From a virus, in IMG/VR virus record IMGVR_UViG_3300027608_000087, positions 1 to 34,925 of that record: 34,925 nucleotides of DNA; one strand, written 5' to 3'. Positions 760-34,925 of this stretch are shown here, in pieces; the first letter of the stretch is position 1, and each line of letters starts with the position of its first letter. A model generated the notes under the pieces. It was not told the DNA's origin and ran no database searches. It saw only the letters and a program-made list of their open reading frames with translations. A program made the position numbers and the translations under genes.

Positions 760-1278
760 ATGAGCTATAGTTTTTTACAAGAAGAGAAGTCACCTAGAAT
801 TCTAGTTCAAGCTGTAAAACTACTTGGAGTTAAAGAAATAGTAGGTTCAAAACATAATCCAGTAATTATGGATTGGGCTAAAGAACTTAAATTAGATAAA
901 GTTTATACGGCAGATGAGATTCCATGGTGTGGTCTATTTATTGCATACTGTGCTCATGAAGCTGGTGTAGAAGTAGTTGATAAACCTCTCTGGGCTTTAA
1001 ATTGGGCTAAATACGGAACTAAAGTAACTGAACCTATGCTAGGTGATATACTTACCTTTAAAAGAAACGGAGGAGGGCACGTAGGACTTTATGTAGGAGA
1101 AGATAAAGATTGTTACCATGTGCTTGGTGGAAACCAGGGAAACTCAGTATCAGTCACAAGAATATTAAAATCAAGATTGCACCAAGCAAGAAGAACGGCA
1201 TGGAAAGTTGCTCAACCAGCAAATGTCCGTAAAATTCAACTTAGTGCAAAAGGTATAATCAGTAAAAATGAAGCATAA
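760..1278 (+). CDS. Endolysin, CHAP/NlpC-P60-like peptidoglycan hydrolase (TIGR02594-type)
   Basis: 172 residues. The hallmarks of a papain-fold cell-wall hydrolase are visible: the catalytic Cys57 in PWCGLFIAYCAHEAG, His107 in GGGHVGLYVGED, and a polar residue region GGNQGNSV around 123-129. The family (TIGR02594-type, CHAP superfamily) cleaves peptide or amide bonds in peptidoglycan. There is no signal peptide, so export would depend on the holin encoded immediately upstream. The domain fills most of the protein; the last 25 residues are a basic tail that may bind the wall or be dispensable. The downstream ATG overlaps the stop (TAATG), indicating translational coupling. Confidence 0.88.
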   Translation: MSYSFLQEEKSPRILVQAVKLLGVKEIVGSKHNPVIMDWAKELKLDKVYTADEIPWCGLFIAYCAHEAGVEVVDKPLWALNWAKYGTKVTEPMLGDILTFKRNGGGHVGLYVGEDKDCYHVLGGNQGNSVSVTRILKSRLHQARRTAWKVAQPANVRKIQLSAKGIISKNEA

Positions 1279-13550: not shown

Positions 13551-14420
13551 ATGAAAACTAAAAAAAAATATCAAGGTGGAGGTGATGTTGGTCAACCACT
13601 AAGACCTTCTAATTTTGAAAAAAGACAAGCTAAAAAAGTAGGTAGAGCTCAAACAAGAGCTGCTGTTGCTAGTATTGAAGGAGAGGGTACTGTTGCTCAA
13701 AAAAGAGACAATAGAGCTGAGCGTGTATCTACAATGGCAGGAACTGCTAGAGCTAAAACTCCAAAATCAGTTTCTACATCTACATCTACATCTACATCTA
13801 CAGTTAATAATAATAATAAACCTTCTGGAATGGCTAAAACTGCTCCAGAAAATATGAAAACTACTGGTAAGAATGTATCTAAACCTAGCGTTCCTGCAGG
13901 TAAACCAAAACCGGAATATATGAAAACTAGTGTTAAGAGTGTGCCTAAAGACAGTGTTAAAAGTCCTGTTAGATATCAAAAGGGTGGACCAATACAAACA
14001 ACTGGAGCCAAAGGAATAGTTAGACCTGCACAATCAGCACCTAAAGTAACAATTAGTCCTAGTAGTGCGCCTAAAAAATCTACTAAAAAAGCTACTCCTC
14101 CACGTTCAACAATGGATTTAATTAGAGGTTCTAAAAAATCAGACTATGTTGGTACAGTTACTCAAGCTGCTAAAAAAGGCGGTTCAGTTAAGAAAATGCA
14201 AAAGGGTGGACAAACATCTCAGGCTGTAGCAAAAAAAATTGTTAAAGGTGTAAAGTCAGATGTTAAAACAGCAATTAACACCCCATATAATGTAATGAAA
14301 TCTGTAGATGATAAATTAGAAAAAAGATATCCTAATTATACTAAACCAGGTGGTACATATGATATGATTAAAAAAGGTATTAAATCTGTATTTAAAAAGG
14401 GTGGTGCTAAAAAGAAATAA
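13551..14420 (+). CDS. Lys-rich disordered protein with repeated xxGG motifs
   Basis: 289 residues, highly basic, low complexity and probably disordered. At least five short motifs occur: KYQGGGD (6-11), RYQKGGP (141-147), AKKGGSVKK (208-215), KMQKGGQ (215-221) and FKKGGAKKK at the C-terminus. An imperfect internal repeat is present (MKTTGKNVSKPSVP at 102-115 and MKTSVKSVPKDSV at 124-136). A (Ser-Thr)n run and an Asn run (75-89) are encoded by simple DNA repeats. It lies in a block of similar small basic proteins behind the capsid gene. The composition suggests interaction with packaged DNA or with the capsid interior; function unknown. Confidence 0.72.
   Translation: MKTKKKYQGGGDVGQPLRPSNFEKRQAKKVGRAQTRAAVASIEGEGTVAQKRDNRAERVSTMAGTARAKTPKSVSTSTSTSTSTVNNNNKPSGMAKTAPENMKTTGKNVSKPSVPAGKPKPEYMKTSVKSVPKDSVKSPVRYQKGGPIQTTGAKGIVRPAQSAPKVTISPSSAPKKSTKKATPPRSTMDLIRGSKKSDYVGTVTQAAKKGGSVKKMQKGGQTSQAVAKKIVKGVKSDVKTAINTPYNVMKSVDDKLEKRYPNYTKPGGTYDMIKKGIKSVFKKGGAKKK
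13773..13819 (+). repeat. Simple repeats (TCTACA)5 and (TAA)5 inside the Lys-rich gene
   Basis: Five tandem TCTACA hexamers (13773-13802) encode alternating Ser-Thr, and TAATAATAATAATAA (13805-13819) encodes an Asn run. The repeat units are multiples of 3, so slippage would change linker length without breaking the frame. Confidence 0.9.
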
Positions 14421-14422
14421 TA

Positions 14423-14614
14423 GTGGCTACCAAAAAAACAACTAAAAGCAAAGTAAACCAGGCTGGTGTCTACACTAAGCCTGGTATGCGTGAGACTATA
14501 TTCAAAAGGATTAAAGCTGGCACTAAAGGTGGAAAGCCTGGAAAATGGTCTGCTAGAAAAGCACAACTAATGGCCAAAGAATATAAAGCTAAAGGTGGTG
14601 GTTATAAAAACTAA
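14423..14614 (+). CDS. Small basic protein, DUF5872-like
   Basis: 63 residues from a GTG start 2 bases after the preceding stop. The central sequence IKAGTKGGKPGKWSARKAQ and the ending YKAKGGGYKN are the pattern I know as DUF5872 (a small domain found in phages, giant viruses and some bacteria, function unknown). Highly basic with no hydrophobic core, so DNA or RNA contact is plausible. The first in-frame ATG is at codon 21, which would delete the conserved start of the domain, so GTG is preferred. Confidence 0.75.
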   Translation: MATKKTTKSKVNQAGVYTKPGMRETIFKRIKAGTKGGKPGKWSARKAQLMAKEYKAKGGGYKN

Positions 14615-14620
14615 AAAGTA

Positions 14621-14887
14621 ATGGCTAAAGATCCTCAACAAAGTCTCAGAGATTGGGGTGCACAAAAGTGGATGACTTCTGGTACTCATGCTAATAAAAA
14701 GAAGGGCAAGAATAAAGAAGTAAAATCTAAGGGCTCAAAGAGGTATCTACCAGAAGCTGCTTGGGATTCATTGTCTGCTGGAGAAAAAGCTGCTACTAAT
14801 AAAGCAAAAGCTGCAGGTAACAGAAAAGGAAAACAGTTTGTTAAACAGCCTAAGAACATTGCAAAAAAGACATCAAAACATAGATAA
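14621..14887 (+). CDS. Small basic protein of a widespread virus/bacterial family (RYLPexA...KQFVKQPKxIAxKT type)
   Basis: 88 residues. The N-terminus SLRDWGAQKW, the middle KRYLPEAAWDSLSAGEKAAT and the end GKQFVKQPKNIAKKTSKHR correspond to a small basic protein family I recall from many phages, giant viruses and bacteria. I cannot give its family number with certainty; no function is established. The two conserved blocks are joined by a Lys-rich linker (NKKKGKNKEVKSKGSK). It overlaps the next gene by one base (TAATG). Confidence 0.75.
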   Translation: MAKDPQQSLRDWGAQKWMTSGTHANKKKGKNKEVKSKGSKRYLPEAAWDSLSAGEKAATNKAKAAGNRKGKQFVKQPKNIAKKTSKHR

Positions 14888-15117
14888 TGGCAAAGAGTAA
14901 ACTTAAAATGCAAAAAGGTGGCACACCTAAACCAAAATCACAATCTAATCAAACAATGAAAACTGTAAGATGGGAAGGTGGTAATACTGGTTTACAAGTA
15001 CCAAGTTATATGGTTGATGCTACAGGTAATGCTCTTCCACAATATCAAGCTACAGTAAAAGATAGATTACAGAAAGCAGGTAAACTTTCATTTGGTGGAT
15101 CAATAAAAAGAAAATAA
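14887..15117 (+). CDS. Small basic protein with MQKGG and FGGSIKRK motifs
   Basis: 76 residues starting on the ATG that overlaps the previous stop. It opens with KLKMQKGGTPKPKSQ, has a short folded-looking middle (MKTVRWEGGNTGLQVPSYMVDATGNALPQY, split by Gly residues) and ends in KLSFGGSIKRK. Both ends carry the xxGG motif seen throughout this region. No known domain. Confidence 0.65.
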   Translation: MAKSKLKMQKGGTPKPKSQSNQTMKTVRWEGGNTGLQVPSYMVDATGNALPQYQATVKDRLQKAGKLSFGGSIKRK

Positions 15118-15119
15118 AA

Positions 15120-15290
15120 ATGGCACAGAATGCAAAACAACAAGCTGCAATAGCTATCTCAATGAAGAAAGCTGGTAAGAAACCTAAGATGGCAAAAGGT
15201 GGAACTGCTAAAAGTTGTTGGCCAGGTTATGAAAAAAAAGGTACTAAGAAGATGTATGGTAAGACATACAATAACTGTGTAAAAAAATAA
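15120..15290 (+). CDS. Small basic protein, 56 aa, MAKGG motif and CWPGYEKKGTKK module
   Basis: The ATG lies 2 bases after the preceding stop and the frame of 56 codons ends 4 bases before the next gene. It contains KMAKGGTAKSCWPGYEKKGT, then KKMYGKTYNNCVKK. The CWxGYxxxGxKKxxGKxxxxCV pattern with its two Cys is a module I recall from many aquatic phage proteins, where it is often fused to larger structural proteins. Function unknown. It is shorter than typical gene-calling thresholds and easy to miss. Confidence 0.7.
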   Translation: MAQNAKQQAAIAISMKKAGKKPKMAKGGTAKSCWPGYEKKGTKKMYGKTYNNCVKK

Positions 15291-15294
15291 TATT

Positions 15295-16242
15295 ATGGCT
15301 GCTCTAAGACCTTATGCTTTAAGAAATCCAAAAACAAATACTGTTGTACCGGGTGCTTTAGTTCTTTCTAATATTAAACCTATATCAGGAGATTGGTTTC
15401 CTGTTGTTGAAGGTATAGAAAGAAATGTTGTTAATCCAGTAAGTTATGATACTACTGTTAAAATAACATATCCTTCTTGTGTAAACTCACAAAGGTTTGG
15501 AGACTATGCAAAAACTTTTATACAAGCTCAAGGCTATACTCCTGATAATGTAGTATTATCTGAATCAATTTGTTCAGATGATATTGATGGTCCAGTATAT
15601 GCTGATATACAAAATATTGGTCAAACTCCTGCATCACAAAATGATTTTTTAGGTCCTTTTATGTCAGGAGGTTTATCTGGATATCCTCATACAGGAATAT
15701 TAGGTATTCAAGCTTGGGGATCACATATTACAAATACAACGAATGGTGCTTTATTTTTTATTAATACTCCCCACATTGGAATTTCTCAAGTAGGAAATGT
15801 AGGTAGGGTTTGGAGAAGAGGTAAGACGCAAGCTCAATCTTTAACAGATAACACTTGTGGTGCAGTTGCTACAGCAATTACATGGGTAGCAGCAAATGCT
15901 ATTGCTCCAGTTGTAGCAAACTTTCCAGATGATTATCAAAACTATACACTATGTGATATACTTTTTCCATTTAAAGTAGCTCTTGCAGCTATACCAGATT
16001 ATGGAGATCAAATGGTATATGCTACTGAAAAAATAAGATTAGCTGGAGATACTTTTTTAACAGGTGCATCAGGAATAATTGCTGCTAATGTTGGAGTAGG
16101 TATTGATGTATTTTATTGTTCAGGAACATTTATTAATACAGATGATGGATATAATGCTTATGTTAATGTTACATCATTTAAAAAATATAATAGTGTTGGA
16201 GGATGGGTAGATTTAACTACATCCTTTTTAGCGGGTTTATAA
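15295..16242 (+). CDS. LCIB/LCIC-like beta-carbonic-anhydrase-fold protein
   Basis: 315 residues. From about 65 to 195 it follows the pattern of the limiting-CO2-inducible LCIB/LCIC family (a beta-carbonic anhydrase relative with zinc held by Cys, His, Cys): an F...GY.P.N....S(I)CSDDI block with Cys93 and Asp95, GGLSGYPHTGILGIQAWGSH (125-144), FFINTPHIGISQVGNVGRV (154-172) with His160, and a RRGKT...DNTCGAV block (174-191) with Cys188. All predicted zinc ligands and the Asp are present. If active it would interconvert CO2 and bicarbonate; some family members have no activity. The last 120 residues are beta-rich and have no recognised match. It lies inside the basic mini-protein cluster, with ordinary phage codon use. 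The alternative is a structural protein that has kept the fold only. Confidence 0.72.
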   Translation: MAALRPYALRNPKTNTVVPGALVLSNIKPISGDWFPVVEGIERNVVNPVSYDTTVKITYPSCVNSQRFGDYAKTFIQAQGYTPDNVVLSESICSDDIDGPVYADIQNIGQTPASQNDFLGPFMSGGLSGYPHTGILGIQAWGSHITNTTNGALFFINTPHIGISQVGNVGRVWRRGKTQAQSLTDNTCGAVATAITWVAANAIAPVVANFPDDYQNYTLCDILFPFKVALAAIPDYGDQMVYATEKIRLAGDTFLTGASGIIAANVGVGIDVFYCSGTFINTDDGYNAYVNVTSFKKYNSVGGWVDLTTSFLAGL

Positions 16243-16253
16243 AATAAAAAATT

Positions 16254-16532
16254 ATGGCAAACTTTAAAAGTCCAAGTTGGACAAGAAAAGAAGGTAAAGA
16301 TCCTAAAGGGGGTCTTAATGCTAAAGGTGTTGCTAGTTATAGAAAAGCTAATCCTGGTAGTAAACTTCAGACAGCCGTAACTACAAAACCTTCTAAGCTT
16401 AAAGCAGGAAGTAAAGATGCTAAGAGAAGAAAAAGTTTTTGTGCTAGAATGTCTGGGATGCCCGGACCTATGAAAGATGAAAAAGGAAGACCAACTAGAA
16501 AGGCTCTTTCTTTGAGAAAATGGAACTGTTAA
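16254..16532 (+). CDS. Small basic protein, DUF6321-like (KxxPxGGLxxxG / SFCARMxGMxGPM type)
   Basis: 92 residues. It contains SPSWTRKEGKDPKGGLNAKG, RRKSFCARMSGMPGPMKDE and KGRPTRKALSLRKWNC, consecutive blocks of a small domain very common in aquatic phages and giant viruses that I recall as DUF6321; the number is from memory. No biochemical role is known. It carries two conserved Cys (in SFCARM and the last residue) and a net charge strongly positive. It lies 11 bases after the LCIB-like gene. Confidence 0.75.
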   Translation: MANFKSPSWTRKEGKDPKGGLNAKGVASYRKANPGSKLQTAVTTKPSKLKAGSKDAKRRKSFCARMSGMPGPMKDEKGRPTRKALSLRKWNC

Positions 16533-16544
16533 AAACTATATAAA

Positions 16545-16808
16545 ATGAAAACATTAAAAACTTGTAAAACAGGCTGTGGTAAAATGAAATCCGGTGGAGC
16601 TGTTAAGAAAGTAAAGAAGATGGCTCAAGGTGGTCAGATGTATGGTATTCCTCAAACAGGAACTACAAACTACAGTGCGCCTACTATGAAAAAAGGTGGT
16701 ACTTTAAAACCTGTTCCTTCTGATCAAAAAGGTTTAGCAAAATTACCAACTGCAGTTAGAAATAAAATGGGCTATCAGAAAAAAGGTGGTACTGTTAAAA
16801 GAAAATAA
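16545..16808 (+). CDS. Small basic protein with four xxGG motifs
   Basis: 87 residues almost entirely made of xxGG units: KMKSGGAVKK (13-22), KKMAQGGQMYG (24-34), TMKKGGTLKP (47-56) and YQKKGGTVKRK (77-87), joined by short polar linkers; the N-terminus has CKTGCGK. The repeated unit is [MY]-x-x-G-G followed by a small or polar residue and a hydrophobic residue. The last unit is nearly the same as the end of the 95-aa protein at 1439-1726. No fold is apparent; a multivalent docking or substrate protein is plausible. Confidence 0.68.
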   Translation: MKTLKTCKTGCGKMKSGGAVKKVKKMAQGGQMYGIPQTGTTNYSAPTMKKGGTLKPVPSDQKGLAKLPTAVRNKMGYQKKGGTVKRK

Positions 16809-16810
16809 CT

Positions 16811-17104
16811 ATGAAGGCACCTGCTAAATTAAAACCTATGACTGGTCGTATACCTGCATCTGTTAAAAAGCCTATGCCGGTAAAATCAGTAAGTAAATAT
16901 TCACCTGTTCCTAAAAAAATGAAAGAAGGTGGTAACTGGATTCAAGGTGCTATTAAAAAACCAGGGGCTCTTAGAGAACAACTTGGTGTAAAGAAAGGTG
17001 AAAAGATTCCTAAAGCTAAATTAGCTGCAGCAGCTAAGAAAGGTGGTAAGCTTGGTCAAAGAGCTAGACTTGCTATTACTCTTGGTAAAATGAATAAAAA
17101 ATAA
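16811..17104 (+). CDS. Small basic protein with WIQGAIKKPGAL...KLGQRARLA module
   Basis: 97 residues. The N-terminal half is Lys/Pro-rich and ends with KMKEGG; the C-terminal half holds NWIQGAIKKPGALREQLG, VKKGEKIPKAKLAAAAKK and GGKLGQRARLAITLGKMNKK. This C-terminal domain is a widespread small helical module of phage and giant-virus proteins, often found alone or fused to other virion proteins, with unknown function. It is 6 bases before the adaptor-like gene and ends the mini-protein run. Confidence 0.75.
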   Translation: MKAPAKLKPMTGRIPASVKKPMPVKSVSKYSPVPKKMKEGGNWIQGAIKKPGALREQLGVKKGEKIPKAKLAAAAKKGGKLGQRARLAITLGKMNKK

Positions 17105-17811: not shown

Positions 17812-18330
17812 ATGGAAAATAAAACAAGATTATTAAAGAGAAATCCAGAACCTGCTAAAACACTTAGCAGACCACAAGTTATTGTTACTCAACCTAAGAG
17901 TGAACCAGCTAAACCTGAACCTACTCCGGATACAGGAGTTGGTGGAAGCTCATTAGATACAATGACAGCAGCATGTGCAACAGAGATGATGAATGCTGCA
18001 GTTAGTTTTCATAGATTACACTTACAAGTTAAAGGTGAGGGTTCTTATGCAGCTCACAAAGCATTGGGTAACTTCTACGAAGGTTTACATGATCAAGCTG
18101 ATAAACTTATAGAAGGATACCAGGGAGTGTGTGAGAAGCTTCTTACTTACACTAACATGCCTATCAGAACTTTAGATAATACTTCAGATGCTGTAAGCTA
18201 TCTTAGAGATTTATATAATGTTGTAGGTAAACTTCAGGCTATGATGCCTTACTCAGAGATAGTAAACAATCTAGATCTTGTTAAGGATTCAATTAATTCA
18301 ACAAAGTATAAATTACTTTTCTTGAAATAA
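17812..18330 (+). CDS. Dps/ferritin-like protein (DUF5856-like)
   Basis: 172 residues. After a Pro/Lys-rich N-terminal linker (about 12-40) there is a four-helix-bundle segment that resembles Dps proteins: FHRLHLQVKGEGSYAAHKALG (66-86) and NFYEGLHDQADKLIEGYQG (87-105), with His67, His70, His82, Glu90, Asp97 and Glu101 spaced as in ferritin-like di-iron or Dps proteins. Phage relatives are known to me as DUF5856. Dps proteins bind DNA and store or detoxify iron; in a phage it could be a virion component or counter oxidative stress. The key residues are visible but the fold is inferred. A 20-base inverted repeat follows its stop. Confidence 0.65.
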   Translation: MENKTRLLKRNPEPAKTLSRPQVIVTQPKSEPAKPEPTPDTGVGGSSLDTMTAACATEMMNAAVSFHRLHLQVKGEGSYAAHKALGNFYEGLHDQADKLIEGYQGVCEKLLTYTNMPIRTLDNTSDAVSYLRDLYNVVGKLQAMMPYSEIVNNLDLVKDSINSTKYKLLFLK

Positions 18331-31000: not shown

Positions 31001-33650
31001 TAGAATTGGTGATGCTTTTTATATTAGAGATAATATTCAGGAAGTACAAACATTTGGACCACCAGCATCTCAGAAAAGATATAGCATTAATAACTTAAAA
31101 AGATCTGATACAGTTACATTAAGAACTTTAACAGGTCCTTATGCTGTTCCTGGTTTTCCACAAGGTGCTGATGATGGTCCAAAATATATTCTTACTCCTG
31201 GCGGTATATATTATGATCAGTCTCTTGTAACATTATCTTATTTTGATAATGATGCTTCAGGACAAGGCAATGCTTGGGGTAATGCAGGAAATCCAAACTT
31301 TAAAAATAACATTGATACACCTTTCTCATTACCAATTGCAAGTCATTATGGTGCAATTAAAATAAGAAAAAGAAATCAGTATGGACAACTACAGTCAATT
31401 AAACAGATAACAATAACACCATGTGAACAAAAACTATCTGATTCTTATTATCCTTCACATACTACTACTGAACAATATTTTTGCGCTGCTGATAGCTCAA
31501 CATATTTTATTAAAAAAATTACAATGACTCCAGTGTTTTTTGGAGGTGACACATTTGTAAATAGATATACAGAAAAGAATACAATGTTCTTTTTCTATGA
31601 TTGGTTATATAGTCAACCTGATGGTTTTGAATTTAACTATCTACTTAGGCAGATGATACCAGAACCAAGATTCTGGGTTAACTCTGCAGAGTATGATTTT
31701 GCAGAATTTTCAGATTTATTTGTTAACATATTTACACCAGGTAACAATCCTCCAGGTACGGGTTGGAAGCCAACTAATTTCTATAACATGGATTGTAATA
31801 ACTATGATTATAGAGATGATTCAATTTTTAATTATCCTGGACTATTTAGACCAAAAGATTGTTATTTCTATTTAACTGCGTCAGCTGTAAGAGATTTCTT
31901 TGTTGAATCTGAAGTACTTGTAGATTTTAGAATTCAAGGTATTACTGATGCTGAAAAGCATTATGATCCATATAGATACACAGATCTAGATGCAATGTTT
32001 AATATGGACCCCCAAATTATTACAAGAGGTAATGAGTATAGATATGATTACTCATTAAGTATAACTAAAGCTTTTAGTCAGTATTTTTCTGCGGGTAATT
32101 TACAGAGTAGATATTATGATCCTTTTGTAGCACAATTATGTTATACTTACTATCCAGATAGAATCATTTATTCTTTACCACAACAACAAGAAGCTTTTAA
32201 AGATAGTTGGTCTGTATACTTAGTAAACAATTATAAAGAATTCAAGTCTCAGATTAGTGGTGTTAAAAGTGTAAATAAGAGTGGTATTATAATTACTTTT
32301 AAAAATGATAGTCCAATAATGTATCAAGGTGTTGATACACTACAAACAGATCTAGGTACTAAGATTACTATTGGTGATGGTGGATTATTTAGTCAACCTG
32401 AACAATCTGTAGTTAACGCTGATAGAGCTTATGAATATGGTTCTTCTCAAAATAGATTATCAATACTTTCATCACCAGCTGGTATTTATTATATCTCACA
32501 AAACCAAGCTAAGATATTTGCATTTGGTCAAGGATTAAAAGAGATATCTCAGATTGGTCTTAAGTGGTGGTTTAATAATTTCTTACCTTATAAGTTAACT
32601 GAAGATTTTCCTGATTATCCATATCAAGATAATCCAGTTTCAGGTATTGGTTGTCAGTCATTGTATGATAATGAGAACACTGTAATTTATTTTAGTAAAA
32701 AAGATTATAGACTTAAACCTGAATGGAAAAATAAAGTTGTTTATGTTCCATTAATTACTTTTGGTAGAAAGAAAGGACAAGGAGATTACTTCCAAATATT
32801 AAATCTTGACGGTAGTGTTCAACCAGGAATATATCAATTAGGGGATCCTATTTTATTTGAAGATGCTTCTTGGACTTTAAGCTTTGACCCTAAGAATGAA
32901 CTATGGATTTCATTCCATGACTGGCATCCTAATTTATCTATTCCAACTAAGAATACTTTCCTTACTACAAAAGGAAATACTATTTGGAAACATAATTCAG
33001 TATGTGATAATTTTTGTAATTTCTATGGTACTCAATATCCTTTTGAAATTGAGTTACCTATTACAACCGGACAAACGGTTACCACAATGAAGTCTGTAGA
33101 ATATGTTCTTGAATGTTATAGAAGAAAAGCATTTAATTGTATTGATCAGTTTCATGTATTAGATTATAACTTTGACAGAGCTGTTGTATATAATTCAGAA
33201 CAAGCGTCTGGATATCTAAACCTTAATATTTTTCCTAAAAACAATGTAGTATTAAGCCAAACATATCCTCAGTTAAATCAATCTAACTTGTCTTCTTTTG
33301 ATATTTTATTTAGTAAAGAAGAAAATAAATATAGATTTAATCAGTTCTGGGATATAACAAAAGACCGCGGAGAATTTCCAGTTGGTTCTGATTATCCACC
33401 TACTGGACCAGTAGTACCTGGAACTACAGTGCTTCAAGGTAATTATGATGAAAACATTCTTTGGAATACATCATCTAATGGTTATATAAGAGAATTAAAT
33501 CAAGGAAATCTAGACTATAATAAACCTCAATTACAAAGAAAGAAGTTTAGACACTACTTAAATTACTTGACCTTGATTAGAGAAAATAGTTCAGATACTA
33601 ATATGATTTTAAAACTTGTAAATACTAAAAATCAAATATCTCTTAGATAA
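28008..33650 (+). CDS. Giant tail protein (crAss-like muzzle/stabilization-type)
   Basis: 1880 residues. The opening NTFIKGLNKDSDPSFVQEG...EGNLGTLSNESSN matches the start of crAss-like tail 'stabilization/muzzle' proteins as I know them (NTFxKGLxKDxDP). Most of the chain is beta-rich and repetitive in style, with Tyr/Asn/Pro-rich surfaces and no enzymatic motif. Two hydrophobic stretches stand out: LTMTFAFVAGVAEGLVSMLG (about 760-780) and AAVFLGGATGQAILAGLGIA (about 915-935), either of which could contact or enter a membrane. The motif FKKGGTF at about 900 sits just ahead of the second. It starts on TAATG and ends on TAATG with the SET gene, indicating one tail operon. Confidence 0.78.
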   Translation: MAKNIQNTSQNVTNTFIKGLNKDSDPSFVQEGMWTHARNATNNTIEGNLGTLSNESSNFLCATTGATMPSFGPDPVVFRYIIGAIQIFSDKWIIYTAGHNAGGVALMSEIGLLEEERCIYRPIVQDSCLGFDKRFLISGSAREREDCSWQVYWADGLNPDRILNVGDPQTWPDYSYQWEANTLINPNQGSYNNAINYYVDNNGNRQLWPGVAWIQDCDPSPACLICNDTNELDCDAIRLARLVNTPCLNVKLGEAGGNLRNGTYFATIAYAIKGQRVTDYFSPSNTQPIYFPDDLQGAITIDIEADTENFDEFILVVVQNINQGTVAKEIGIYSTRTNTVELDQIKDELITVPLEIIPITNPVYETSDQMTDVNNYLLRVGPRSKFDFNYQPLANLIKTKWVSVEYPANYYTKGGNKGSYLRDEVYAFFIRWVYNTGDKSASYHIPGRIAKDYTYIRSGSNVQVTGNERDEVVPNGIQDFNTLTSTDQLFESYNTANLNGNPNILNTILPDGGKVIASGEMGYWESTEIYPDNQPEIWNSSQYCWTGLDGHAGIIDPVIGTISYFNDLCGLPIRHHKFPDNYLSPNTLHYEPAAGQNDPNLLKIRLMGVIFENIPLPKDNEGNDIPGIVGYEILRGSREGNRSIIAKGMINNFRTYEIKGDVQRDRLGLYANYPFNTIKSPLNTGTGSQHNTGFNDPYIKTSPYQQSVPKEIISFHSPDTMFRTPFLESTELKLYGALSGWSDQRFQEPSQHPKFKLLSDLTMTFAFVAGVAEGLVSMLGSKKITQPGASYTRMFGPDISGGAAVNTINGPNGPIPGTIVTTPSNINTNIDTTTEEYTSADQGTVQTDQVGNPGTPLPNSFFGKLEAYFDFGSIFTNTSQVTNTIEPIFEDFNYKTGFKKGGTFTAPSIETDISAAVFLGGATGQAILAGLGIANKFLYYFAEGTDVALQAIYAFIKFDQYALQMISHGLYDSFISPISLQTSIVNGQVVQDAYITRFRIGDAFYIRDNIQEVQTFGPPASQKRYSINNLKRSDTVTLRTLTGPYAVPGFPQGADDGPKYILTPGGIYYDQSLVTLSYFDNDASGQGNAWGNAGNPNFKNNIDTPFSLPIASHYGAIKIRKRNQYGQLQSIKQITITPCEQKLSDSYYPSHTTTEQYFCAADSSTYFIKKITMTPVFFGGDTFVNRYTEKNTMFFFYDWLYSQPDGFEFNYLLRQMIPEPRFWVNSAEYDFAEFSDLFVNIFTPGNNPPGTGWKPTNFYNMDCNNYDYRDDSIFNYPGLFRPKDCYFYLTASAVRDFFVESEVLVDFRIQGITDAEKHYDPYRYTDLDAMFNMDPQIITRGNEYRYDYSLSITKAFSQYFSAGNLQSRYYDPFVAQLCYTYYPDRIIYSLPQQQEAFKDSWSVYLVNNYKEFKSQISGVKSVNKSGIIITFKNDSPIMYQGVDTLQTDLGTKITIGDGGLFSQPEQSVVNADRAYEYGSSQNRLSILSSPAGIYYISQNQAKIFAFGQGLKEISQIGLKWWFNNFLPYKLTEDFPDYPYQDNPVSGIGCQSLYDNENTVIYFSKKDYRLKPEWKNKVVYVPLITFGRKKGQGDYFQILNLDGSVQPGIYQLGDPILFEDASWTLSFDPKNELWISFHDWHPNLSIPTKNTFLTTKGNTIWKHNSVCDNFCNFYGTQYPFEIELPITTGQTVTTMKSVEYVLECYRRKAFNCIDQFHVLDYNFDRAVVYNSEQASGYLNLNIFPKNNVVLSQTYPQLNQSNLSSFDILFSKEENKYRFNQFWDITKDRGEFPVGSDYPPTGPVVPGTTVLQGNYDENILWNTSSNGYIRELNQGNLDYNKPQLQRKKFRHYLNYLTLIRENSSDTNMILKLVNTKNQISLR

Positions 33651-34925
33651 TGAAAAAGTTAAAAGTAGATAAATCTAAGATTGCTGGCAAAGGATTGTTT
33701 ACCACAGATACTTTTGAGCAAGGAGAAATGATTGGATTGGCACATGAGAATGACCAACCCAGTACTTTTATTGGTAAGTACCATAATCACTCTGATGAAC
33801 CAAATGCAGTAAGTATTAAGCTTGGAAATAAAAGATATATAATGGCTAAGAGACCTCTCAAGAAAGGAGAGGAGATTACTACTAATTACAGACTACAACC
33901 AGAGTTAGAACAACCAGAAGATTTTGCAAAGGGAGGACTTGTAAAGATGCCAAAGCCTAGTAAGCAAGGTCTTGCATCTAAAAAGTTTTCTAAAAGCTTA
34001 GAAGCAACAAATAGATTATTTACTGAGAACTATTTATTTTCTAAACCTAAGTCTAAAAAGAATAAAGTATTTGATCCAAATGCTAAATATGAAGACGGAG
34101 GATTTTTACCTATGGCTGAATATGGAATGCCTTTAGGTGCTGGAATATCTCAGAACTACCAAGGAAGAAGAAAGTTTATTCATCAGGATGGCGGAGTAAT
34201 ATCTCAAGAAGATATTGATGCTGCTAACAATGCTATGATGAAAGCAAGATTAGCATATGCAAACATGCATGGTAATCCTGCTGCACAGAGAATGGTTGTT
34301 GCACCAGACCTACCTTATGACTTTGGCAATGGCATGACAGGCACACACTATATGGCATCTATGGATAATTATGCAGTGCCACAAATTCAAGATATTGATG
34401 GTCAACTTATGCTTGGTGATTTTGGTCCTGAGTCTGCAGAAGCAATTAGATTTGACAATCCTGAAGATGCAATGTATTTTGCAGAACACTATAAAGAAGT
34501 TACACCTGATGAATCTTATAGACAAGAAGAATATGCAACAGGTGGTGTAGCTTTTCCATTAGATCTCAATCCAGAGACTATGAAAAAATATAGAGAGGTT
34601 CTTAAAGTTCAAGAAAATTCTCTTAAATCTGGATATAGAAAAGCTGAAGATAAATGGTATCCTCATAGAAGTCCTGAGGGTGGTGCGGATACAGTTGGAT
34701 TTGGTCATAAACTTATAGGACCAGATGCAAATAAATACAATAAAGGCTTAACTACAAAAGAAGCTGAGAACTTACTTGATTCAGATATATTAAAACATCA
34801 AACTGTTGCTGAAAATCTAATAGATAAAAAATACGGTAAAGGTACATTTGACAGTCTTCCTCAGGATTCTCAAATGTTACTTGTAGATTATGCATATAAT
34901 GGTGTATTAAATAGTTTTCCAACAT
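33650..34925 (+). CDS. SET-domain methyltransferase fused to muramidase-like domain (3' end beyond window)
   Basis: The ATG overlaps the tail gene stop (TAATG) and the frame stays open to the window end (425 residues). Residues 1-86 form a compact SET domain: IAGKGLFTTD (11-20, SAM-binding GKG), GEMIG, YHNHSDEPN (44-52, the NHSxxPN core), and KKGEEITTNY (71-80) with the catalytic Tyr80. Four xxGG motifs follow: FAKGG (92-96), YEDGG (147-151), HQDGG (178-182), YATGG (295-299). From about 312 it resembles phage muramidases: a candidate catalytic Glu322 in VQENSL, then SPEGGADTVGFGHKL (341-355) and LTTKEAENLLDSDI. It is probably a virion-associated protein that cuts peptidoglycan and methylates lysine in protein. 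Which target is methylated, and whether the domain is active, cannot be told. Confidence 0.75.
   Translation, partial: MKKLKVDKSKIAGKGLFTTDTFEQGEMIGLAHENDQPSTFIGKYHNHSDEPNAVSIKLGNKRYIMAKRPLKKGEEITTNYRLQPELEQPEDFAKGGLVKMPKPSKQGLASKKFSKSLEATNRLFTENYLFSKPKSKKNKVFDPNAKYEDGGFLPMAEYGMPLGAGISQNYQGRRKFIHQDGGVISQEDIDAANNAMMKARLAYANMHGNPAAQRMVVAPDLPYDFGNGMTGTHYMASMDNYAVPQIQDIDGQLMLGDFGPESAEAIRFDNPEDAMYFAEHYKEVTPDESYRQEEYATGGVAFPLDLNPETMKKYREVLKVQENSLKSGYRKAEDKWYPHRSPEGGADTVGFGHKLIGPDANKYNKGLTTKEAENLLDSDILKHQTVAENLIDKKYGKGTFDSLPQDSQMLLVDYAYNGVLNSFPT

Follow-up and report, generated by a model that had tools for sequence, protein, structure and literature searches.

The window analysed here, a 34,925-nt stretch of viral DNA (IMG/VR record IMGVR_UViG_3300027608_000087), belongs to a crAss-like phage, as judged by its portal, terminase and major head protein, which match crAss-like phage families. 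The gene of interest is the first after that of a muzzle (tail tip) protein homologue, whose counterpart in csAssE-Sib bears the annotation muzzle; the muzzle stop codon and the ATG of the SET gene overlap by one base (TAATG). This position bears out the tail-operon location proposed in an earlier, sequence-only reading of the window. Features are listed in Table 1. Two further observations concern the virion genes. A run of small lysine-rich proteins with KxGG motifs (16-24% Lys), one of them with DUF6321, lies in the head/tail cluster at 13551-17104 and comprises possible methylation substrates, and the ORF at 17812-18330, inside the virion gene cluster, matches a 'starvation-inducible' (Dps-like) PHROG (1.7e-18).

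Table 1. Features of the window discussed in the text
Feature	Position	Strand	Basis or remark
CHAP/NlpC-type hydrolase, a distinct cell-wall enzyme encoded by this phage	760..1278	+	
Muzzle (tail tip) protein homologue, 1880 aa	28008..33650	+	phrog_37948 1.3e-57; csAssE-Sib 'Muzzle protein', phi4:1 gp042
Mosaic cargo-type gene, 5′ part (425/1269 aa)	33650..34924	+	open to contig end, runs off window
Mini-SET module, residues 1-92, including lineage-specific tail LQPELEQPEDF (82-92)	33650..33925	+	Pfam SET, AF2, Foldseek, dN/dS
GKG, putative SAM-binding GxG motif, residues 13-15, G15 invariant	33686..33694	+	44-sequence alignment
Asn46-His47 of NHS motif, invariant	33785..33790	+	alignment
GEEITTNY, residues 73-80; E75 and putative catalytic Y80 invariant	33866..33889	+	alignment
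GG motif (FAKGG) at joint of SET and next module	33932..33937	+	homology breakpoints near GG
Conserved basic linker module, residues 97-148, common to SET-less relatives	33938..34093	+	homology
Further GG joints	34097, 34190, 34541	+	
Conserved module, residues 183-290, most widely shared part of family	34196..34519	+	homology
GH24-like muramidase module, residues 304 to ~475, cut by window end	34559..34924	+	Phage_lysozyme 25.2 bits
TVGFGH element	34691-34708	+	inside Phage_lysozyme match

The arrangement recurs in related phages. A SET gene was found in or beside the slot after the muzzle gene in about 36 related loci, and in 33 crAss-like loci, some of them from the same phages sequenced again, the SET ORF directly adjoins the end of the muzzle homologue or overlaps it (muzzle identity 34-100%). 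It lies one gene further from the muzzle in L060 and directly 5′ of a tail-region gene in L072 and L099, the latter carrying a lone 109-aa SET in a tail gene cluster. L053 and L062 are the two ends of one 118-kb contig; at each, a SET gene follows the end of a muzzle gene, as could result from an end overlap, a duplication or a chimera.

Extension of the contig, which had been proposed as a check, was achieved through contigs from other metagenomes. The complete gene (L002:8001-11810) encodes a 1269-aa protein present in full in L002, L003 and L004 with 100% identity to the window ORF; L005 is a shorter fragment, also identical. In L006 and L007 a single uninterrupted frame was observed at about 80% protein identity. 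The SET and TVGFGH halves thus share one frame in L002-L007, and an assembly join or a frameshift between them is ruled out by the identical L002-L005 and the intact frame in L006. The SET-muramidase fusion initially described is therefore real, but the two domains do not form a fixed pair: they are two modules of a larger mosaic, which includes further modules and a possible peptidoglycan-binding stretch. For residues 667-1120, a profile search of the PDB yielded no credible match and the AlphaFold (AF2) model was poor (pLDDT 51).

The N-terminus carries GKG, YHNHSDEPN (residues 44-52) and GEEITTNY in SET order, as first noticed from the sequence alone, and the Pfam SET profile (PF00856) matched the window ORF with 37.2 bits and E=4.3e-9 (cut-off 22.4). 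In an alignment of about 95 residues built from 44 viral-contig sequences (47 with three phage records), S9, G15, G42, N46, H47, E75 and Y80 are invariant in 47 of 47. The profile of these 47 relatives matched MLL1 (4.7e-10) and vSET (1.2e-9) in the PDB. The domain is, as the sequence-only reading had remarked, unusually short: profile positions 3-88 (86 positions) align to 109 residues of vSET, and positions 4-80 (77 positions) to 114 residues of MLL1. In these alignments the full-length SET-I region between the motifs is absent, leaving a much shortened SET-I. SET-I is where the family varies, so its shortness does not exclude SET membership, although it bears on substrate binding. Structure prediction, also among the suggested checks, gave a SET fold (AF2 model built without the three phage records; pLDDT 88.9, pTM 0.78), for which the closest solved structure found by Foldseek was vSET (3kma, E=2.3e-6, TM 0.63). 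The closest predicted viral structure was that of a 971-aa 'SET domain-containing protein' from an uncultured virus, showing that similar proteins are already in databases. Profile, predicted fold and SAM-binding and catalytic residues together identify the N-terminus as a true mini-SET domain and a putative lysine methyltransferase. Purifying selection acts on this module (dN/dS 0.067 against L006 and 0.096 against L007), with values below the 0.238 of the muramidase module. A scan of cellular genomes returned just 8 matches, all remote. The mini-SET clade therefore looks viral, and a recent capture from a cellular genome is disfavoured.

The TVGFGH element had been attributed to phage muramidases. 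On the open window ORF, Phage_lysozyme (PF00959) scored 19.1 bits, below the cut-off of 22.3, whereas the isolated complete module from L002 reached 25.2 bits, in agreement with this attribution. Of the relatives, 9 of 9 matched Phage_lysozyme at E<=0.01, and the module has a relative in a T7 gp15-like internal virion protein. As the module profile found no match in the PDB, the hydrolase assignment rests on Pfam and tblastn. Read by eye, E322 and T348 are kept with an unusually long spacing and no clear catalytic Asp.

Relatives of the 1269-aa protein have some modules in common and others not. The N-terminal slot is occupied by SET, by a module that we call 'ITMxGV', or by both. Many family members lack SET, which is thus an accessory. 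Where present, it shares a chain with a GH24-like module (L002, L119), Amidase_2 (L067, 1.6e-16), SLT and LysM (L088, SLT 6e-10) or ART-PolyVal (L050, 6.6e-13); in the SET chain of L030, GNAT and peptidoglycan-binding matches were near or under the cut-off. The cassette is also found by itself, or fused to DHH, cupin-like or nucleotidyltransferase domains. By these comparisons SET is a swappable cassette of domain-shuffled mosaic proteins. Homology breakpoints fell within 8 aa of a GG in 39 of 69 raw cases, against 14% of the length; collapsed to 16 clusters, 6 were near GG (p ~0.013). This gives modest support to the idea that the mosaic parts join at GG motifs.

Several other assortments were observed. 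Mosaic ORFs of L020, L026, L027 and L030 carry FDFDDTL-type (HAD-like by eye) and zinc-ribbon-like (CKKCGWKWD) cassettes between GG joints. Phage contigs among L076-L114 (e.g. L079:5567-7642) encode proteins of about 700 aa with a DHH-like phosphoesterase and the same mini-SET; in four of these DHH-SET proteins an ITMxGV-like module follows the mini-SET, a co-occurrence which suggests that the two are functionally linked. A 446-aa protein found in three contigs (L057:1870-3207) joins a nucleotidyltransferase-like domain to a C-terminal mini-SET, and an N-terminal cupin-like region (by eye) precedes the mini-SET in L041:3410-4294, L042:3530-4291 and L121:6323-7252. The cupin-like-SET gene of MW202744 lies near a 'phage stabilization protein' gene.

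The slot after the muzzle gene offers information about packaging. In the Cellulophaga phage phi4:1, the muzzle counterpart gp042 is a virion protein by MS/MS, as are the products of all five genes checked downstream of it (gp041-gp037). Among them, gp041 is a tail lysozyme (Phage_lysozyme2, E=5.1e-32) and gp040 starts with the ITMxGV module and aligns to the SET-bearing protein of L060 (1.6e-9). The virion of phicrAss001, with gp44 as its muzzle, contains the cargo proteins gp45 and gp46, the former of which has been observed in both capsid and tail (PMC10172136). The relative of the muramidase module within a T7 gp15-like internal virion protein is a further indirect pointer to packaging. 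Synteny and the homologous proteins verified by MS/MS suggest that the SET-muramidase protein is probably packaged in the virion. The packaging anticipated in the sequence-only reading is thus favoured by the position after the muzzle and by the verified slot of phi4:1, and for the window phage we infer it from these.

Taken together, these results make it reasonably likely, in our judgement, that the product of the gene is a polyvalent protein packaged in the virion, which would open the wall and bring a lysine methyltransferase into the bacterium; packaging, injection, activity and substrate are what we infer here. The mosaic protein would be synthesised following the muzzle protein, kept in the particle and expelled through the tail at infection. 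Its peptidoglycan-hydrolase modules would help to breach the cell wall, and the N-terminal mini-SET would reach the cell interior, where, as a SAM-dependent lysine methyltransferase of proteins, it would act early on those of the bacterium (or on phage proteins injected with it). Against this stand the presence of the same cassette in DHH-SET proteins, which show no sign of packaging, a SET-I substrate region far shorter than in known enzymes, the accessory status of SET, and the unusual Glu/Thr spacing of the muramidase with no clear Asp. The fuller statement, that crAss-like phages inject a lysine methyltransferase and a wall hydrolase on one chain in order to reprogram the proteins of the bacterium as infection begins, is put forward tentatively, as a possibility to which we give somewhat less than even weight.

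The main rival is that SET acts during assembly and methylates virion proteins of the phage, such as the small lysine-rich proteins of the head/tail cluster, and not proteins of the host after entry. At least six small proteins of the window (14423-15117, 16254-17104; one with DUF6321) have 16-24% Lys and few acidic residues, the cyanophage P-RSM6 carries a mini-SET on its own right next to its gp25 baseplate gene, and the lone SET of L099 also lies among tail genes. A maturation enzyme, however, would not need to share its chain with wall hydrolases or ADP-ribosyltransferases, and many relatives have no SET; we consider this explanation unlikely. We also regard as improbable a polyprotein cut at the GG motifs, from which SET and muramidase would be released to act separately. 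It would account for GG at module joints, the nearby breakpoints and the stand-alone SET in the same kind of slot in L099, but no matching protease was identified and the GG motifs are perhaps just flexible linkers; such cutting would in any case be compatible with delivery into the bacterium. A purely structural or binding SET, decorating the N-terminus of a cell-wall-entry protein, would fit the strongly shortened SET-I and the non-enzymatic-looking ITMxGV module that often takes its place, but is less probable still, given that all 47 sequences keep G15, N46, H47, E75 and Y80 unchanged, in contrast to other positions, and given the strong selection on the module.

Should delivery into the bacterium be correct, it would constitute a prokaryotic parallel to the packaged vSET, with protein lysine methylation used in phage-host conflict, a use of which we found no description, and it would extend the range of activities that phages bring into bacteria. 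The SET loci would form a clear set for substrate finding, and the gene after the crAss muzzle would be a swappable cargo slot. Since the cassette is gained and lost among related phages, its effect is directly testable.

The sequence-only reading had regarded the SET-hydrolase architecture as not known to have been described. In the open-access literature searched (most subscription papers fall outside it), nothing relevant was found on SET in crAss-like phages, phage virions or polyvalent proteins; the one crassvirus match was to an immunoglobulin 'C2-set domain'. The architectural principle of polyvalent proteins (PMC5512222) and a packaged viral SET, that of PBCV-1 (PMC7019647), are already known, and the claim of novelty is narrowed to that extent. 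Apparently new are their combination in phages, the fact that it recurs behind the crAss muzzle gene, and how small the domain is.

Polyvalent proteins are large proteins of phages that combine unlike enzymatic modules, among them lysozymes, ARTs and GNATs, and their delivery with the DNA has been proposed (Iyer et al. 2017, PMC5512222). The present family resembles them in having several disparate effector domains per chain (L002, L050, L067, L088), with a Pfam ART-PolyVal in L050. The terms 'SET domain', 'lysine methyl' and 'protein methyl' are absent from the main text of that paper, and the slot behind the crAss muzzle and the GG-joined architecture are specific to the window family. Compared by gene position only, the phicrAss001 cargo proteins gp45 and gp46 are similar in their place after muzzle gp44, and also in their large size; PMC10172136 mentions neither a SET nor a lysozyme. 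Likewise, phi4:1 gp041 and gp040 lie directly downstream of the muzzle homologue, with a tail lysozyme and an N-terminal ITMxGV module, respectively, but they have no SET and the lysozyme is of a different Pfam family (Phage_lysozyme2). The stand-alone or cupin-like-fused mini-SETs of P-RSM6, zth2-2 and MW202744 are homologous and keep the same key residues, outside any large mosaic and on chains without a wall hydrolase. A further known system is vSET of the chlorovirus PBCV-1, which the virions carry and to which repression of host transcription is ascribed (PMC7019647). Like the window module, vSET (119 aa; PDB 1n3j, 3kma) is a small viral SET, and it is the best PDB fold match. It is, however, a stand-alone enzyme of a eukaryotic virus that acts on histone H3K27, whereas the window SET is shorter, forms one part of a large phage protein with several domains and presumably encounters a bacterium.
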